64,000 bases of DNA, taken from Treponema sp. GTDB taxonomy: Bacteria; Spirochaetota; Spirochaetia; Treponematales; Treponemataceae. The translations under genes were made by a program, and so were the position numbers. The DNA lies in assembly GCA_024695475.1 (NCBI GenBank), contig JAILIC010000095.1, forward strand, positions 1 to 64,000, given 5' to 3'. The notes under the pieces were generated by a model. That model saw only the letters and a program-made list of their open reading frames with translations, searched no databases and was not told the DNA's origin. Positions 11,391-17,375 of this stretch are shown here, piece by piece. How positions within the stretch are numbered: position 1 is the first letter of the stretch; each line of letters begins with the position of its first letter.

Positions 11391-12046
11391 TTTTTGCCTC
11401 TGTACTGTGAAAGTCTTTTTTCAAGAACGCGCGAAATAACTGTAATCGGAAGGAGCATAATGAAATATGCCACAACCAAAAGAAACAGTGATTCTTCTGT
11501 TTTGTAATACAGACCAATCAAATCCTTTGCAACAAACATGACATCTGCCAAAGCGACTGCACTAAAAACTGAAGTTTCCTTTAGTAAGAAAATAATGTTT
11601 GCAACTACTCCTGGAATTGCGACACTTAATCCTTGCGGAAACACAACATAACGTGCAATCTGAATCGTATGTAAGCCAATGCAAAGTCCGCTTTCCACTT
11701 GAGATTTGCTTACTGTTTCAAGTGCACTTCGGAAGGTTTCTGTCATATAGGAAGATCCCAAAAAAACAACTCCGATGAGTGCACATTGCTCACCGGTAAG
11801 TCGGATACCAATGCGCGGTAATGCAAAATACAAGAAAAAAAGTTGAATCAAAAGAGGCGTGTTTCTTGAAATTTCTGTGTACACAATCACTGCTAGGTTT
11901 AAAATAGGAAGTTTCCAAAATCTGATAAGTGCAAACAAAACTCCAAAAAACAAAGAAAGAACTATACCTGTAAAACCAATTCTCAAAGTAAGAACCGATG
12001 CCTCTACATACAATGGAATTACTTGTTTTATAAATTCTAAATCCAT
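11387..12046 (-). CDS. Amino acid ABC transporter permease
   Basis: YTEISRNTPLLIQLFFLYFALP; ESGLCIGLHTIQIARYVVFPQGLSVAIPG. Confidence 0.9.
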   Translation of the reverse strand: MDLEFIKQVIPLYVEASVLTLRIGFTGIVLSLFFGVLFALIRFWKLPILNLAVIVYTEISRNTPLLIQLFFLYFALPRIGIRLTGEQCALIGVVFLGSSYMTETFRSALETVSKSQVESGLCIGLHTIQIARYVVFPQGLSVAIPGVVANIIFLLKETSVFSAVALADVMFVAKDLIGLYYKTEESLFLLVVAYFIMLLPITVISRVLEKRLSQYRGKK

Positions 12047-12071
12047 TCCTTGCCCCTAATATGCAAAAATA

Positions 12072-12107
12072 CCCCGAAAGGTGAGCTTTGTCGCTTTAGT
12101 TTCGGGG
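12072..12107 (-). promoter_or_regulatory. Intercistronic hairpin between binding protein and permease genes
   Basis: CCCCGAAA ... TTTCGGGG inverted repeat, no long U tract. Confidence 0.6.
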
Positions 12108-12126
12108 ATTGGTCTTAAAAGATCTT

Positions 12127-12972
12127 TTAGAGTTTTCCACCTTCAACTACAAGACTGTCTGCGTCACTATCTGCACCATAAACAGTACGGAGTGTTGCTT
12201 CATAATTTTTGTGGAAGAAGTTTTCTTTTCCTAGTTCTGCAATTTCATTATTGAGCCAGTTAAGTAAATCTGTATTACCTTTTGTAACTGCTCCTGCAAT
12301 TGCATCAAGACTTCCTATAGAATCAGCTCCTGCACCTACTGCAAAGGAAGGATTTTCGATTGCCCAAGCTAGGACTTCTGTATTGTCTGTAGAAAGACCA
12401 TCACCACGACCATCTAAAAGCGCGTTATATGCTTCTGAATACTGGTCAAATTTTAAGAGCTTAATTTCTGGATAGTTTTTTGAAAAATAACTTTCTGCGG
12501 TGGTTCCTTTTGCAATAATCAAGGTTTTTCTATTAAGCTGAGCCGGATCTGTTATTAAAGCAGATTTTGGAGAAACGATACCCAAAGCAACCTTCATGTA
12601 TGGAAGTACAAAATCAACCTTTTCTGCTCTCTCTGGGGTTACGGTAAAGTTTGCAAGAACAAGATCTACTTTGCCTGTTGTCAAAACTTCTACGCGATTT
12701 GCAGCTTCAACAGGAACATATTTTACTTTTACGCCCAGATCTTTTGCTATGCGGTTTCCGTAATAAACATCGTATCCTTGATATTCACCTTTTTCGTCAA
12801 CATAACCAAATGGTTTTTTGTCACTAAATACAGCTATCTTAATGGTTCCGCTTTTTTTAATTTGTGCAACTGTTCTTCCTGTTTTTGATTTTGCAGAAAG
12901 GGGTGAAAGTGAAGCTGTCAAAATGGCTGCCAACGCAACTGTTTTTGTAATTTTAGAAAATGATTTAAACAT
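12127..12972 (-). CDS. Amino acid ABC transporter substrate-binding protein (likely cystine/cysteine)
   Basis: Signal peptide; SBP family 3 text GTIKIAVFSDKKPFGYVDEKGEYQGYDVYYGNRIAKDLG. Confidence 0.9.
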   Translation of the reverse strand: MFKSFSKITKTVALAAILTASLSPLSAKSKTGRTVAQIKKSGTIKIAVFSDKKPFGYVDEKGEYQGYDVYYGNRIAKDLGVKVKYVPVEAANRVEVLTTGKVDLVLANFTVTPERAEKVDFVLPYMKVALGIVSPKSALITDPAQLNRKTLIIAKGTTAESYFSKNYPEIKLLKFDQYSEAYNALLDGRGDGLSTDNTEVLAWAIENPSFAVGAGADSIGSLDAIAGAVTKGNTDLLNWLNNEIAELGKENFFHKNYEATLRTVYGADSDADSLVVEGGKL

Positions 12973-13017
12973 AATAATACCTCTGTAATTGTTTTTGAGA
13001 AATGTACTCTATACCAA

Positions 13018-13136
13018 AACTTTGCAACAAAGTTATTAAAGATAGAGATTAGGATATCTCTAAAAACCCACCTCTGGCGTTTTTTTAGAGAATAACTGTA
13101 TGTAAAAAGAGATTTTTGGCTAAAGAACTTTTAGCC
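13018..13136 (-). promoter_or_regulatory. Candidate attenuator hairpins downstream of Cys leader ORF
   Basis: Perfect or near-perfect inverted repeats: 13118-13124/13130-13136, 13058-13066/13082-13090, 13043-13049/13056-13062, 13018-13024/13028-13034; the second and third share bases and are mutually exclusive. Confidence 0.6.
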
Positions 13137-13213
13137 TAACAAAGACAACAACAGAGGCACATACGTCCGTTGCGGAAATTTTCACGAACAAGTTTTTCAA
13201 AATAAAATTTCAT
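13136..13213 (-). CDS. 25-aa Cys-rich leader peptide MKFYFEKLVRENFRNGRMCLCCCLC (candidate cysteine attenuator)
   Basis: ATG at 13213-13211 preceded by GGAGGT; last 7 codons Cys-Leu-Cys-Cys-Cys-Leu-Cys before TAG; upstream of cystine-type ABC/trans-sulfuration operon; below the ORF-track size cutoff. Confidence 0.75.
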   Translation of the reverse strand: MKFYFEKLVRENFRNGRMCLCCCLC

Positions 13214-13291
13214 TATGTACCTCCAAAAAAAGTTATAATCGTCGTGAATCGACAATGTGATTCGATATATTCCTATCGAATTAATAGGTTA

Positions 13292-13320
13292 AATATATAT
13301 TTTATTACCCACTATGTCAA
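13292..13320 (-). promoter_or_regulatory. Sigma70-type promoter for leader peptide/cystine operon
   Basis: Minus strand TTGACA (13320-13315), 17-nt spacer, TATATT (13297-13292). Confidence 0.7.
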
Positions 13321-13444
13321 TAGGTAATACATGTCTTTTATAATAACAGCAAGATGAAAGTATATATTATCCTCATGCACAACCTATACATTCACTGATG
13401 GAAGCTTTGTAAGGTTACAAAAAACTTGTGGTAGAGAAGTATAA

Positions 13445-13481
13445 AAAAAAGACCACCTGAAATAAACATCAGATGGTCCTT
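13445..13481 (-). terminator. Terminator after Fbp/Afu-type binding protein gene
   Basis: GGACCATCTGA...TCAGGTGGTC followed by T8 on minus strand. Confidence 0.8.
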
Positions 13482-13512
13482 GCTTTTAGATAAATTGTTT
13501 TATCCTGATAGC

Positions 13513-14544
13513 TTATTTGTGGATAGATGTGTATAAGCTGTTCCAGTGCTCGAGTACAGCCTTTTTGTGTTCAATTAACCAATCAACATCACGAATAACC
13601 CATTTTACATCTTTGCTGTCTGGCAGGTACTTTGAAGTATATGTTGCCTTTGAGTTGGTAAGACGCAATGTCTGTAAAGCATTACCCAGGTCAGTTTCGC
13701 CTTCTGGGCTCATTAAGAAGTTAATCAACTTTTTTGCACCTTCTGGGTTTTTGCATCCTTTGATCATAGCACAACCGAATGCAGAAGCTGATGTACCTTC
13801 AGCTGGATATACCATCTTGATGTTTGTAGCACCTGACTTAAGCAGGGTAGATGCACCATCTTCATAAGTGAGACCAACTACATATTCACCAGTCTGTACA
13901 CTCTTAAAACAAACAGATGATGAAGTAGAAATAACGATATCATTCTTTAATAGTTTTTCGATGTAATCCCATGAAGCGGCTGAGTCATTTCCATAAACTG
14001 ACATAATGTTACAAACATTGTTCCATGCTGCTGAAGAAGAATTTGGATCAGAAAGAACCATTTTGCCTTTTAGTTTTGGATCAAGCAAATCTGCATAACC
14101 TTTAATATTTAAACCGAGCTGTTTTTCTAGATCTGTGTTAACGCAGAATACAACAGTTGAAAGGTGGTCAAGGTTATAAAATCCATTATTTGATTTATAA
14201 CCTTCCATAATATCAGGTTCATACTCTGTTAAGTAATTTTCAAACAAGTCAGCATTTGCCATACCATCGCTGTTTCCTAAACCGCCCCACATGACATCGC
14301 CTTGAGGATTGTTTTTTTCTGCACGGATACGAGCAGTTAATTCACCTGCAGAACCATTAACAACTTCAATAGTCATTCCAGGATTCTTTTCTTCAAAAAG
14401 GCGAGTTAAGTTACCTATGTCATTTTCAGTCATAGAGGAATAGAGAACAACGCGATTATTCTTTTTATCACTACCGCCAGCTGCAAATACTGCCATGCTC
14501 ATTGCAGCAAGAGCCATGGCACAAAGTCCAACAATTTTTTTCAT
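13513..14544 (-). CDS. ABC transporter substrate-binding protein (Fe3+/thiamine/2-AEP-type family)
   Basis: MKKIVGLCAMALAAMSMAVFAAGGSDKK signal; NRVVLYSSMTENDIGNLTRLFEEKNPGMTIEVVNGSAGELTARIRAEKNNPQGDVMWGG; start moved to 14544. Confidence 0.88.
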   Translation of the reverse strand: MKKIVGLCAMALAAMSMAVFAAGGSDKKNNRVVLYSSMTENDIGNLTRLFEEKNPGMTIEVVNGSAGELTARIRAEKNNPQGDVMWGGLGNSDGMANADLFENYLTEYEPDIMEGYKSNNGFYNLDHLSTVVFCVNTDLEKQLGLNIKGYADLLDPKLKGKMVLSDPNSSSAAWNNVCNIMSVYGNDSAASWDYIEKLLKNDIVISTSSSVCFKSVQTGEYVVGLTYEDGASTLLKSGATNIKMVYPAEGTSASAFGCAMIKGCKNPEGAKKLINFLMSPEGETDLGNALQTLRLTNSKATYTSKYLPDSKDVKWVIRDVDWLIEHKKAVLEHWNSLYTSIHK

Positions 14545-14600
14545 TTTTCGCTCCTTAGTATATATATTACATCCGGTATTGCTCCGGACAAAATACCTGT

Positions 14601-16253
14601 TTACATTTTGATGTCTTCTGCACCACTTATCTTTAAGTACAGTAATAACGACAAGAATGTTAATACCGTTAAAATTGAAGAAAAGGCACAAGCCATTCCG
14701 TAGTTACCCATAGCAATTGACACATAGGCTGACATCGTTAAGGTGATGGTACTGTTGTTGTACAAAATGATTGAACTGGACAATTCCGTAACTAAGGATA
14801 CCCAACTTAAAATAGCTCCGGACAAAATACCGTTGGTCATCATAGGTACCGTTACTTTGCGGAATGTTTTAAGCTTAGAGGTACCAAGACTTATGGAGGC
14901 TTCTTCGATGCTCATTGGTATTTGCATGAGGTTTGCCGTTGCCGAGCGTATAGTATAGGGCATTCGGCGTATGACAAAAGACATGACCATAATAATCATA
15001 GTACCAGTGAGGGCTAAAGGTTTGTTACTAAAGGCTATGACCAAGGCAATACCAATGACTGCACCAGGAATGATATACGGTATCATTGAAATGGTATCGA
15101 TCATATTATTCCAGAGGCTTGGACGACGTACAACCAGATAGGCAATGAATATTGACAGCAATATGATGATGGCAAGTGCCAAACCGCTTATGACCAGTGA
15201 GTTTGTCAGAGAGCGTGACAAAAGATGGCGGGATGCTGCCTTGTAGCTGTCAAGTGAAAAGCCCGGTTTAAATACTGCCATATCGCATTTCTTGAAAGAC
15301 AGGAAAATGACATAGAGCTGTGGCAAAAATGAAAAAGCAATAACGATGTAGCAATACGCATTCATTATAATAGCACGGATAAGTCCAGGTTTTTTCTTTT
15401 GTACCGGATGCAGGGCATTGATAGAAAACTTAAACTTATTGGTTCCCCATTTTTGCAGGGCAAAAACCAGGGCCGTAATAATGATTGCTATAACACTGAT
15501 GGTAGCAGCAAAATGGAAGTCTGTTCCGTTTTCTCCCAAGTATTGGTTATAGATCTCTACCGGGAATGTTCTAAAGCCTTCACCGAGCAATAACGGTGTT
15601 CCAAAGTCTGCGAATGAACGCATAAATACCAGTAACGAAGCGGCAAGAATAGTTGGCATACACAGACGCAGTGTTACCTTAAACACACGTTTGATACCGA
15701 CACATCCTAGGTTTGCAGAAGCTTCGAGCAGGCTGTTGTCGATGTTCTTAAAGGCACCGTTCATATAGATAAATACGAGCGGAAAGAGCTTTAAGGTCTC
15801 AACTAAGACTATGCCGCGAAGCCCATAGATGCTGCCTATCTTGATATGGAGTAGGCGTTCCAAAAAGACGGTCAAAACTCCAGAACGGCCAAGCAACAAA
15901 ATCCATGCATAGGCACCGATAAAGGGAGCTGACATACAGCACAAGATGCTCAAAATAAAGATCATCTTGGCACCTTTGAGTATGTAAAACGAATAGCAGT
16001 ACGAAAGGGGAATACCAACAGCTAACGAAAAGAACGTAATCAGTATGGCAAGCTTTAGACTGTTTAATATCGTTTTACTATAATACGGTTTTGAAAAAAA
16101 GGTGATGAAGTTACTCATCGTAAAGTGTCCGTTGCTGTCAAGAACCGCTAAACGGAATATCTTGATCATCGGATAGAGCAGACACAGAATAAACAACCCC
16201 ATAATGGCAATGGAGACAATTGTCCAGACATCAAATTTCCATTTCTTTGACAT
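14601..16253 (-). CDS. ABC transporter permease, FbpB-type (duplicated permease domain)
   Basis: 550 aa, two binding-protein-dependent permease halves (LLEASANLGCVGIKRVFKVTLRLCMP; SIEEASISLGTSKLKTFRKVTVPMM). Confidence 0.9.
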   Translation of the reverse strand: MSKKWKFDVWTIVSIAIMGLFILCLLYPMIKIFRLAVLDSNGHFTMSNFITFFSKPYYSKTILNSLKLAILITFFSLAVGIPLSYCYSFYILKGAKMIFILSILCCMSAPFIGAYAWILLLGRSGVLTVFLERLLHIKIGSIYGLRGIVLVETLKLFPLVFIYMNGAFKNIDNSLLEASANLGCVGIKRVFKVTLRLCMPTILAASLLVFMRSFADFGTPLLLGEGFRTFPVEIYNQYLGENGTDFHFAATISVIAIIITALVFALQKWGTNKFKFSINALHPVQKKKPGLIRAIIMNAYCYIVIAFSFLPQLYVIFLSFKKCDMAVFKPGFSLDSYKAASRHLLSRSLTNSLVISGLALAIIILLSIFIAYLVVRRPSLWNNMIDTISMIPYIIPGAVIGIALVIAFSNKPLALTGTMIIMVMSFVIRRMPYTIRSATANLMQIPMSIEEASISLGTSKLKTFRKVTVPMMTNGILSGAILSWVSLVTELSSSIILYNNSTITLTMSAYVSIAMGNYGMACAFSSILTVLTFLSLLLYLKISGAEDIKM

Positions 16254-16256
16254 GGT

Positions 16257-17375
16257 CTATGCCTCCGGCTGTTCGTTGTCATTTTTGACGCCAGTGAGAA
16301 TGTTTGTAGAGCCGTCAAGTGTAAAAATATTTATCTTATTAATATCAAGACCGAGTTTTACTTCTTTGCCTTTTTGTAGTAAGTCGTCGATACGAGAGAC
16401 TTGGATAGTTTCAAAACGCATACCGTTTTCGAGTTCGATAATAATATGTGTATTTAATCCAAGGAATATACAATCATGCACCTTTGCACTTATGCCGTTG
16501 AAATCATCTGGCTGCATAAGGAACTCTTCCGGGCGTATAGAAACCAATACGTCCTGATCCTTTTTGTATTGTTCCTGAATGTTGGCAATCTCAACAGTGT
16601 AGTTTAAAATGGTCAGCATACATTTGTTATCCTGCATTTTAATAGAACCTTGGATAAGATTGTTATGTCCGATAAACGAAGCAACAAACGTATTTGCAGG
16701 GCGTTGATAAATTGCTTTTGGTGTACCTATCTGCTGGATAGTTCCGCTATTTAAAACGGCAATTCTATCTGATACTGCCATGGCTTCTTCCTGATCATGG
16801 GTAACATAAATAGTTGTAATACCTATTTGCCTTTGCAGTTCCCTAATTGCAGAGCGCATTTCAATACGAAGTTTTGCATCGAGGTTTGATAACGGTTCGT
16901 CCATGAGTAGTACGTGTGGTTCTATACAAAGAGCACGTGCAATTGCAACGCGTTGCTGCTGACCACCAGAAAGCTGGGCTGGCATACGATTTGCAAACTG
17001 ATCGATTTGCATCAGTTTTAAGAATGACTCTGCTTGCTCATGTATTTTTGTACGATCCATTTTAAGGTTTTGTAGACCAAACTCAACATTTTTACGGACA
17101 CTCAAATGAGGAAAAATAGCATAGTTTTGAAATACCATACCAATATTTCGTTTGGATGGGTCAAGATCGTTAATTCGTTTATCATTAAAATAAAAATCAC
17201 CGCCTTCGATAGAATTAAAACCGGCAATCATTCGCAATAATGTGGTTTTACCACAACCTGATGGACCAAGCAGTGTAAAAAACTCTCCTGGTTTTATGGT
17301 TACATTTAACTTATCAATGATTTTTTTTCCATCAAAAATTTTAACCGCATTCTTTATGCGTATTCCAACACTCAT
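16257..17375 (-). CDS. ABC transporter ATP-binding protein, FbpC/PotA-type
   Basis: GPSGCGKTT, LSGGQQQRVAIARAL, TOBE-like C-terminus. Confidence 0.92.
   Translation of the reverse strand: MSVGIRIKNAVKIFDGKKIIDKLNVTIKPGEFFTLLGPSGCGKTTLLRMIAGFNSIEGGDFYFNDKRINDLDPSKRNIGMVFQNYAIFPHLSVRKNVEFGLQNLKMDRTKIHEQAESFLKLMQIDQFANRMPAQLSGGQQQRVAIARALCIEPHVLLMDEPLSNLDAKLRIEMRSAIRELQRQIGITTIYVTHDQEEAMAVSDRIAVLNSGTIQQIGTPKAIYQRPANTFVASFIGHNNLIQGSIKMQDNKCMLTILNYTVEIANIQEQYKKDQDVLVSIRPEEFLMQPDDFNGISAKVHDCIFLGLNTHIIIELENGMRFETIQVSRIDDLLQKGKEVKLGLDINKINIFTLDGSTNILTGVKNDNEQPEA

Follow-up and report, generated by a model that had tools for sequence, protein, structure and literature searches.

We found a family of short leader peptides, shared by gut treponemes and Clostridia and apparently undescribed so far, that is encoded ahead of sulfur genes. 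We consider it likely that the leader is a sulfur-responsive translational attenuator. This reading is based on comparison and combines the leader itself, its conservation, the selection for Cys codons, two RNA pairings and the sulfur context. Ribosomes stalled at the end of the leader would probably switch on sulfur uptake and synthesis; that they stall, what makes them stall and which way the operon responds are predictions from sequence. In the literature that we searched, no sulfur control of this kind has been described before for spirochaetes or Clostridia; here it would govern how abundant bacteria of the gut and rumen assimilate hydrogen sulfide and take up cystine.

A leader ORF precedes a cystine-type uptake operon

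The window was the whole stretch of 64,000 nucleotides analysed, from contig JAILIC010000095.1 of a Treponema sp. genome, and all features described below lie on its minus strand. The leader ORF, MKFYFEKLVRENFRNGRMCLCCCLC-stop, has 25 codons (13213-13136) and was recognized from its sequence and its homologues. It is preceded by a sigma-70-like promoter, TTGACA-17-TATATT at 13320-13292, which matches the consensus at 11 of 12 positions, and by a Shine-Dalgarno (SD) sequence, GGAGGT, at 13224-13219. The predicted 5ʹ UTR of the window leader is about 70 nt and a GGAGG-type SD precedes most leaders of the family, so the ORF is not leaderless. Cys occupies five of the final seven codons; at the 1.27% Cys found locally, this would arise by chance with a probability of about 7e-9. 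The ORF consists of a conserved core, YFEKLVRENFRNGRM (13204-13160), whose residues are kept while its codons vary freely and whose last residue is a Met (M0, 13162-13160), and of a Cys-rich tail, TGC CTC TGT TGT TGT CTT TGT (13159-13139). The tail shows in-frame Cys enrichment in the family and doubles as an anti-SD, complementary to both the leader SD and the SD of the downstream gene.

Comparison with NCBIfam models placed five genes after the leader: a family-3 substrate-binding protein (SBP) of cystine type (12972-12127), for which the top matches were polar amino-acid/cystine SBPs, all under the curated cut-offs; two ABC permeases of the polar amino acid family (12046-11387 and 11390-10716); a GlnQ/TcyN-like ABC ATPase (10698-9934); and a cystathionine gamma-lyase/synthase-type PLP enzyme of Cys/Met metabolism (9924-8746). 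An earlier note on this DNA had described this gene order, the consensus-like promoter, the GGAGGT ribosome site and the 25-codon ORF with five Cys near its end, and all of its sequence claims hold. As judged from the sequence, the window leader is genuine and amounts to more than a run of Cys codons.

Upstream of the leader, an adjoining ABC operon of 2-aminoethylphosphonate/iron type (SBP, fused permease and ATPase; 13513-17375) was observed, and no copy of the leader was found there. An Rfam scan of 11500-14500 with E values up to 10 gave unrelated chance matches only, with no riboswitch or T-box family. The leader matched no NCBIfam model, and a profile search of the PDB with the leader found no similar chain. 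Literature searches with the core string found no paper, and those with leader peptide plus Treponema or plus O-acetylhomoserine sulfhydrylase (OAHS) found nothing relevant.

Leaders of this family lie upstream of sulfur genes in two phyla

Among 394 genomes of the order, about 60 carried the leader, all of the same family as the window, and treponeme genomes held as many as four or five copies. Contig C158 of the window's own genome carries another leader, MVIYFEKLVRENFRNGRMCLCCLSK, upstream of an OAHS gene; this leader and gene (L002; G000:C158:49559-52621) are oriented divergently to a response regulator/histidine kinase pair. When the DNA pattern of the core was searched over GTDB genomes, it was found mainly in treponemes and also in about ten Clostridia, including Blautia schinkii. 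Profile searches extended the family to one further spirochaete family and, in Clostridia, to 43 of 295 genomes of one order, 5 of 392 of another and 32 of 341 class-wide. Weak matches (L111, L113, and matches with E of 0.02-0.1 in other families) were judged to be due to chance and set aside. No plasmid match was found. Treponemataceae contributed 106 unique leaders to the collected set, and Clostridia 56. A poly-Cys leader, of which the earlier note knew no case in spirochaetes, is present in this group; it is not restricted to it, since the family also occurs in Clostridia.

The short ORF is found immediately 5ʹ of cysteine and other sulfur genes. Downstream of all but a few leaders were genes for OAHS, CysK, MetQ/MetNI, a cystine ABC transporter, MalY-like enzymes or related proteins, and the short leader signature makes unannotated sulfur operons recognisable. 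Several gene arrangements recurred. In three treponeme loci (L035, L087, L105) and one clostridial locus (L225), the leader preceded NifB-, NifH-, NifX- and NifD/E/K-like operons, some with CysK; such operons may represent nitrogenase-like sulfur salvage of the methylthio-alkane reductase type in gut treponemes. A LanC-like protein followed the leader at L043, L047, L050, L056 and L070; at the first four of these loci CysK came next, and at L047 and L050 it was followed by an OAHS-cluster gene and a MalY-like enzyme. At L034, L053 and L072 a URO-D-type methyltransferase followed the leader, with SBP and ABC genes after it at L034 and L053, possibly an operon for uptake and use of methylated sulfur. 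Recurrent insert-like repeats (GGGTTT..GGGGC..GAGGGTAGC..GGGGGAGACTTCCCCC) were seen between leader and gene at L036, L045, L049, L055, L062, L089, L092 and L100.

The core is conserved as a peptide

Among the 106 treponeme leaders, eight positions of the core F..L.R.NFR.G.M were invariant or nearly so: F-13, L-10, R-8, N-6, F-5, R-4, G-2 and M0. The same eight positions were kept in the 37 clostridial leaders examined likewise. At the nucleotide level the core was free to drift: in treponemes, the Leu, Val, Arg and Gly codons of the core differed synonymously in about 50-75% of sequence pairs. Because the amino acids are invariant while the codons drift, selection in the core acts on the peptide and not on the RNA, and this combination is what is expected of an arrest peptide. 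A core that serves as an RNA element was rejected for treponemes, since synonymous changes are free. The length is also fixed, with the initiator Met 17 residues before M0 in 91 of 106 treponeme and 31 of 37 clostridial leaders. Given that two phyla share its core, this peptide of about 18 residues makes a strong candidate for a new nascent-chain sensor.

The codon directly before M0 was CGA in all 56 clostridial leaders (L215-L285), and it possibly has a role in pausing there. In treponemes this codon was mostly GTC (58/106), with CGA in 8.

Cys codons of the tail are selected in frame

In the tail, TGY made up 52% of codons in frame versus 2% in the other frames in treponemes, and 34% versus 2% in Clostridia; Cys accounted for 46% and 32% of the codons after M0, respectively. 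This strong in-frame enrichment in both phyla shows that the Cys codons are under selection, and it supports the reading of the earlier note that the ORF is a Cys-rich leader peptide of sulfur genes. The expected conservation of C-terminal Cys in relatives was seen in 99 of 106 treponeme leaders, which had Cys within the first six tail codons; it was not universal, because it was missing from 7 of 106 leaders in treponemes and from 23 of 56 in Clostridia (33 of 56 had it). Of the 23 clostridial leaders without Cys, 20 stop right after M0, 19 of them at UGA. The C-terminus of the leader was very variable. Since many clostridial leaders have no Cys and place UGA right after the core, counting of Cys codons is by itself insufficient for the family. 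Because UGY and UGA alternate after the core, the relation between codon starvation and nascent-chain arrest can be tested directly in this family.

These data bear on nascent-chain arrest as the sole mechanism, in which the core would stall the ribosome at M0 in response to a sulfur metabolite (O-acetylserine, O-acetylhomoserine, SAM or cysteine, with TnaC or SpeFL as precedent) and the Cys codons would merely tune the response. The conservation of the core as amino acids in two phyla, its fixed spacing from the start, its retention in Cys-free leaders and the invariant clostridial CGA all favor this explanation, and UGA directly after M0 in 19 of 56 clostridial leaders is compatible with arrest at termination. 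We nevertheless regard it as unlikely in this pure form, because a metabolite sensor would not need the Cys codons that are so strongly selected in both phyla.

The tail is complementary to two Shine-Dalgarno sequences

In the window, the leader SD together with its flank (13225-13214) is complementary to the tail (13163-13152) over 12 positions. Across the loci compared, the M0-tail DNA paired with the leader SD of its own locus at a mean of -13.4 kcal/mol, versus -11.3 when loci were mispaired (permutation z of about -7.1 to -7.5). Pairing with the ribosome binding site (RBS) of its own downstream gene was likewise better than with that of other loci (mean of -9.4 versus -8.2; z of about -4.7 to -4.8). 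Control segments gave no signal in the same test. The loci are not independent, owing to gene exchange and shared ancestry; both pairings persisted without near-duplicates and within one gene family (p of 0.001 or less), and after near-duplicate removal the z for tail and downstream RBS was -3.4 to -3.8 (p of 0.0005 or less). In a sliding scan, the best partner was nt 0 to +17 after M0 for the downstream RBS, and -6 to +11 for the leader SD. Against shuffled intergenic sequence the mean effect of tail and RBS was modest (z of about -0.8), and other leader segments were near zero.

Covariation was also observed between the base that opens the tail (T for Cys, C for Arg) and the base two positions past GAGG in the SD of the leader, with counts of 39 for T/A, 5 for T/G, 8 for C/A and 18 for C/G (Fisher p of 1e-6, kinship ignored). 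In Clostridia the leader-SD pairing was absent, and the downstream pairing was weaker and more spread out. Computationally, the Cys tract pairs with the downstream RBS as an attenuator would. Masking of nt -6 to +15 around M0 raised the predicted accessibility of the downstream SD by 0.12 on average over 69 treponeme loci, and masks placed farther upstream in the leader brought no gain at these loci. In Clostridia (n=34) the region in which masking raised accessibility was wider, from -27 to 0.

The pairing was retained in leaders with little or no Cys. L110, which ends in GRM-stop, and L107 and L108, which end in RMC-stop, have no Cys run, and yet AACTTCTTGAA pairs with TTCAAGGAGTT in the former and TAAAAAATCTCT with GGAGATTTTTTA in the latter two; in all three, the anti-SD lies beyond the stop of the leader. 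In the 19 leaders with at most one Cys after the last FR, the tail paired with its own RBS at -8.6, versus -6.3 for mispaired loci. Conversely, the idea that the Cys codons are a by-product of the anti-SD was rejected, because TGY is enriched in frame only and because Cys is enriched in Clostridia, where the leader-SD pairing is absent.

A leader that only counts Cys codons, as in the mycobacterial polycysteine type, would have a core with no sensing role, conserved for some other reason. In-frame Cys enrichment and the location of the anti-SD fit such a counter, and mycobacterial cysteine genes are described as translation-attenuated in the available text of PMC13236596. The invariant non-Cys core speaks against it, as do the core and anti-SD kept in leaders such as L110, L107 and L108, and we consider this explanation improbable as well. 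The picture of a Cys leader drawn in the earlier note stands as far as a conserved sulfur leader is concerned, and needs revision in that the non-Cys core is its most conserved part and the tail is an anti-SD.

The predicted fold closes the downstream RBS and terminators are almost entirely absent

The RNA from 13240 to 12960 had a minimum-energy fold of -66.9 kcal/mol (z of -4.06 versus shuffles). Both this fold and the centroid fold contained a predicted 26-bp stem, missed by the earlier note, in which the Cys tail on the 5ʹ side (13168-13140) is held against the 3ʹ side (12997-12967) with the SBP SD, ACAGAGGTAT (12986-12977), and start codon ATG (12972-12970). A hairpin overlapping the leader stop, GGCTAAA/TTTAGCC at 13136-13118, had been noted before; it was present in the minimum-energy fold, inside the long stem, and recurred at 24 of 76 treponeme loci versus 3.4 expected by shuffling. 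The hairpin at 13090-13058 was also in the minimum-energy fold. A switch between it and the hairpin proposed to be mutually exclusive with it was not supported, because both lie in intergenic sequence that is not conserved between loci.

Intrinsic terminators, that is a hairpin with a U tract, were absent at 112 of 113 loci, and none was found between leader and gene in the window. A trp/his-type switch is therefore unlikely. The comparison with trp/his/leu leaders in the earlier note is not supported, for this reason and because the hairpins that it named are not conserved, while its caveat that control might be translational is favored by the evidence. Transcription attenuation, by a trp/his-like terminator or by Rho, would account for regulatory codons in the leader, and a Rho-dependent route was proposed, in the text available of PMC1262725, for actinobacterial Cys leaders that have no terminator. 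Besides the missing terminators, the pairing targets the downstream SD and start codon, and some gaps between leader and gene are just 21-60 nt. We thus judge transcription attenuation to be very unlikely.

Operator-like palindromes overlap the promoter

The palindrome ATTACCTATTGACATAGTGGGTAAT spans the -35 element in the window (13328-13304) and recurs in the family, which makes it a candidate for a CymR/Rrf2-like operator. A second operator-like sequence, ACCTATTAATTCGATAGGA, lies near the expected transcription start (13289-13271), with similar ones at several loci. By regular-expression search of the regions upstream of leaders, ACCTATTGACATAGTAGGT-like palindromes over the -35 element were found in 73 of 106 treponeme and 18 of 56 clostridial regions, where about 1 was expected by shuffling, and Rrf2 genes were close to several leader copies. 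A palindromic operator over the promoter is as in CymR/Rrf2 regulons, and Rrf2 would be the candidate to bind it. From the palindromes at -35 and the nearby Rrf2 genes, initiation is probably also under the control of an Rrf2/CymR-like repressor.

The Rrf2 genes near some copies could also suggest that the leader is a small trans-acting protein, for example one acting on Rrf2 or a CysK-type partner, and conservation at the amino-acid level would agree with this. It is hard to reconcile with genomes that carry as many as four or five leaders, every one placed immediately ahead of a sulfur gene, with a tail fitted to its own downstream RBS, or with the highly variable C-terminus, and we regard it as highly improbable.

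The leader was probably exchanged between treponemes and Clostridia

A tree of 87 leader-linked OAHS proteins showed treponeme and clostridial sequences interleaved, with at least six forced switches. This indicates gene exchange between treponemes and Clostridia, in which the leader probably moved along with the OAHS gene. Treponeme genes within clostridial clades (L064, L078, L107, L108, L110) had no CGA before M0, which indicates that this codon follows the host. Such behavior would fit a role in decoding speed.

Proposed mechanism

According to the attenuator model, a transcript would be made from the Rrf2/CymR-like promoter, and a ribosome starting at the leader SD would synthesize the core peptide of fixed length, fMet-x16-Met, and then the short Cys-coding tail. 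If the ribosome runs through and leaves, the free tail would pair either with the SBP gene at its SD and start codon or with the SD of the leader itself, and the operon would be closed; by closing the leader SD too, the tail may halt further translation of the leader. If the ribosome is held with M0 in or near the P site, the tail would be covered and the downstream SD would open. The ribosome would most likely be held because Cys-tRNA is in short supply at the Cys codons, with the conserved core helping or gating the hold from within the exit tunnel. Scarcity of Cys-tRNA would explain the in-frame Cys codons, and the invariant core together with the UGA-ending members argues that the nascent peptide takes part.

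More tentatively, at somewhat below an even chance, the core F..L[LV]R.NFR.G.M may be an arrest peptide of a new kind that senses sulfur and has passed between gut treponemes and Clostridia. It would stop the ribosome on its final Met, ahead of UGY or UGA, and the Cys tail would serve both as an added sensor and as an anti-SD. If so, the genes for OAHS, CysK, uptake of cystine and methionine, and sulfur salvage would be coordinated by one leader family.

Comparison with known systems

In erm/cat-type attenuators and with the arrest peptides ErmCL, TnaC and SpeFL, a conserved short peptide holds the ribosome at a fixed place and the downstream RBS is switched by RNA. The logic shared with our leader would be these same three elements, with the arrest predicted here; the leader differs from them in its Cys-coding tail and in having no similarity to PDB chains. 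The trp/his/leu transcription attenuators also carry regulatory codons in a leader peptide, but the present leader has no pair of terminator and antiterminator. Polycysteine short ORFs that are leaderless were reportedly found in mycobacteria by Canestrari et al. in 2020.

Actinobacterial cys leader peptides without terminators were predicted in 2005 (PMC1262725). In the available text of that report, they resemble our leader in their Cys runs near the stop and their lack of a terminator, but they belong to another phylum and a shared core is not described. For the mycobacterial polycysteine ORFs, the available text of PMC13236596 describes translation attenuation, in which the SD is masked by pairing with the uORF and exposed when a ribosome stalls. 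As far as that text goes, the two systems share a short Cys-rich ORF before cysteine genes and the logic of translational attenuation. The mycobacterial ORFs are leaderless and actinobacterial, whereas the ORF described here is led by an SD that also pairs with the tail, has a conserved 15-residue core and Cys-free members ending at UGA, and is hosted by Spirochaetota and Clostridia. The leader would thus work like the mycobacterial attenuators, minus the leaderless feature and plus a conserved peptide.
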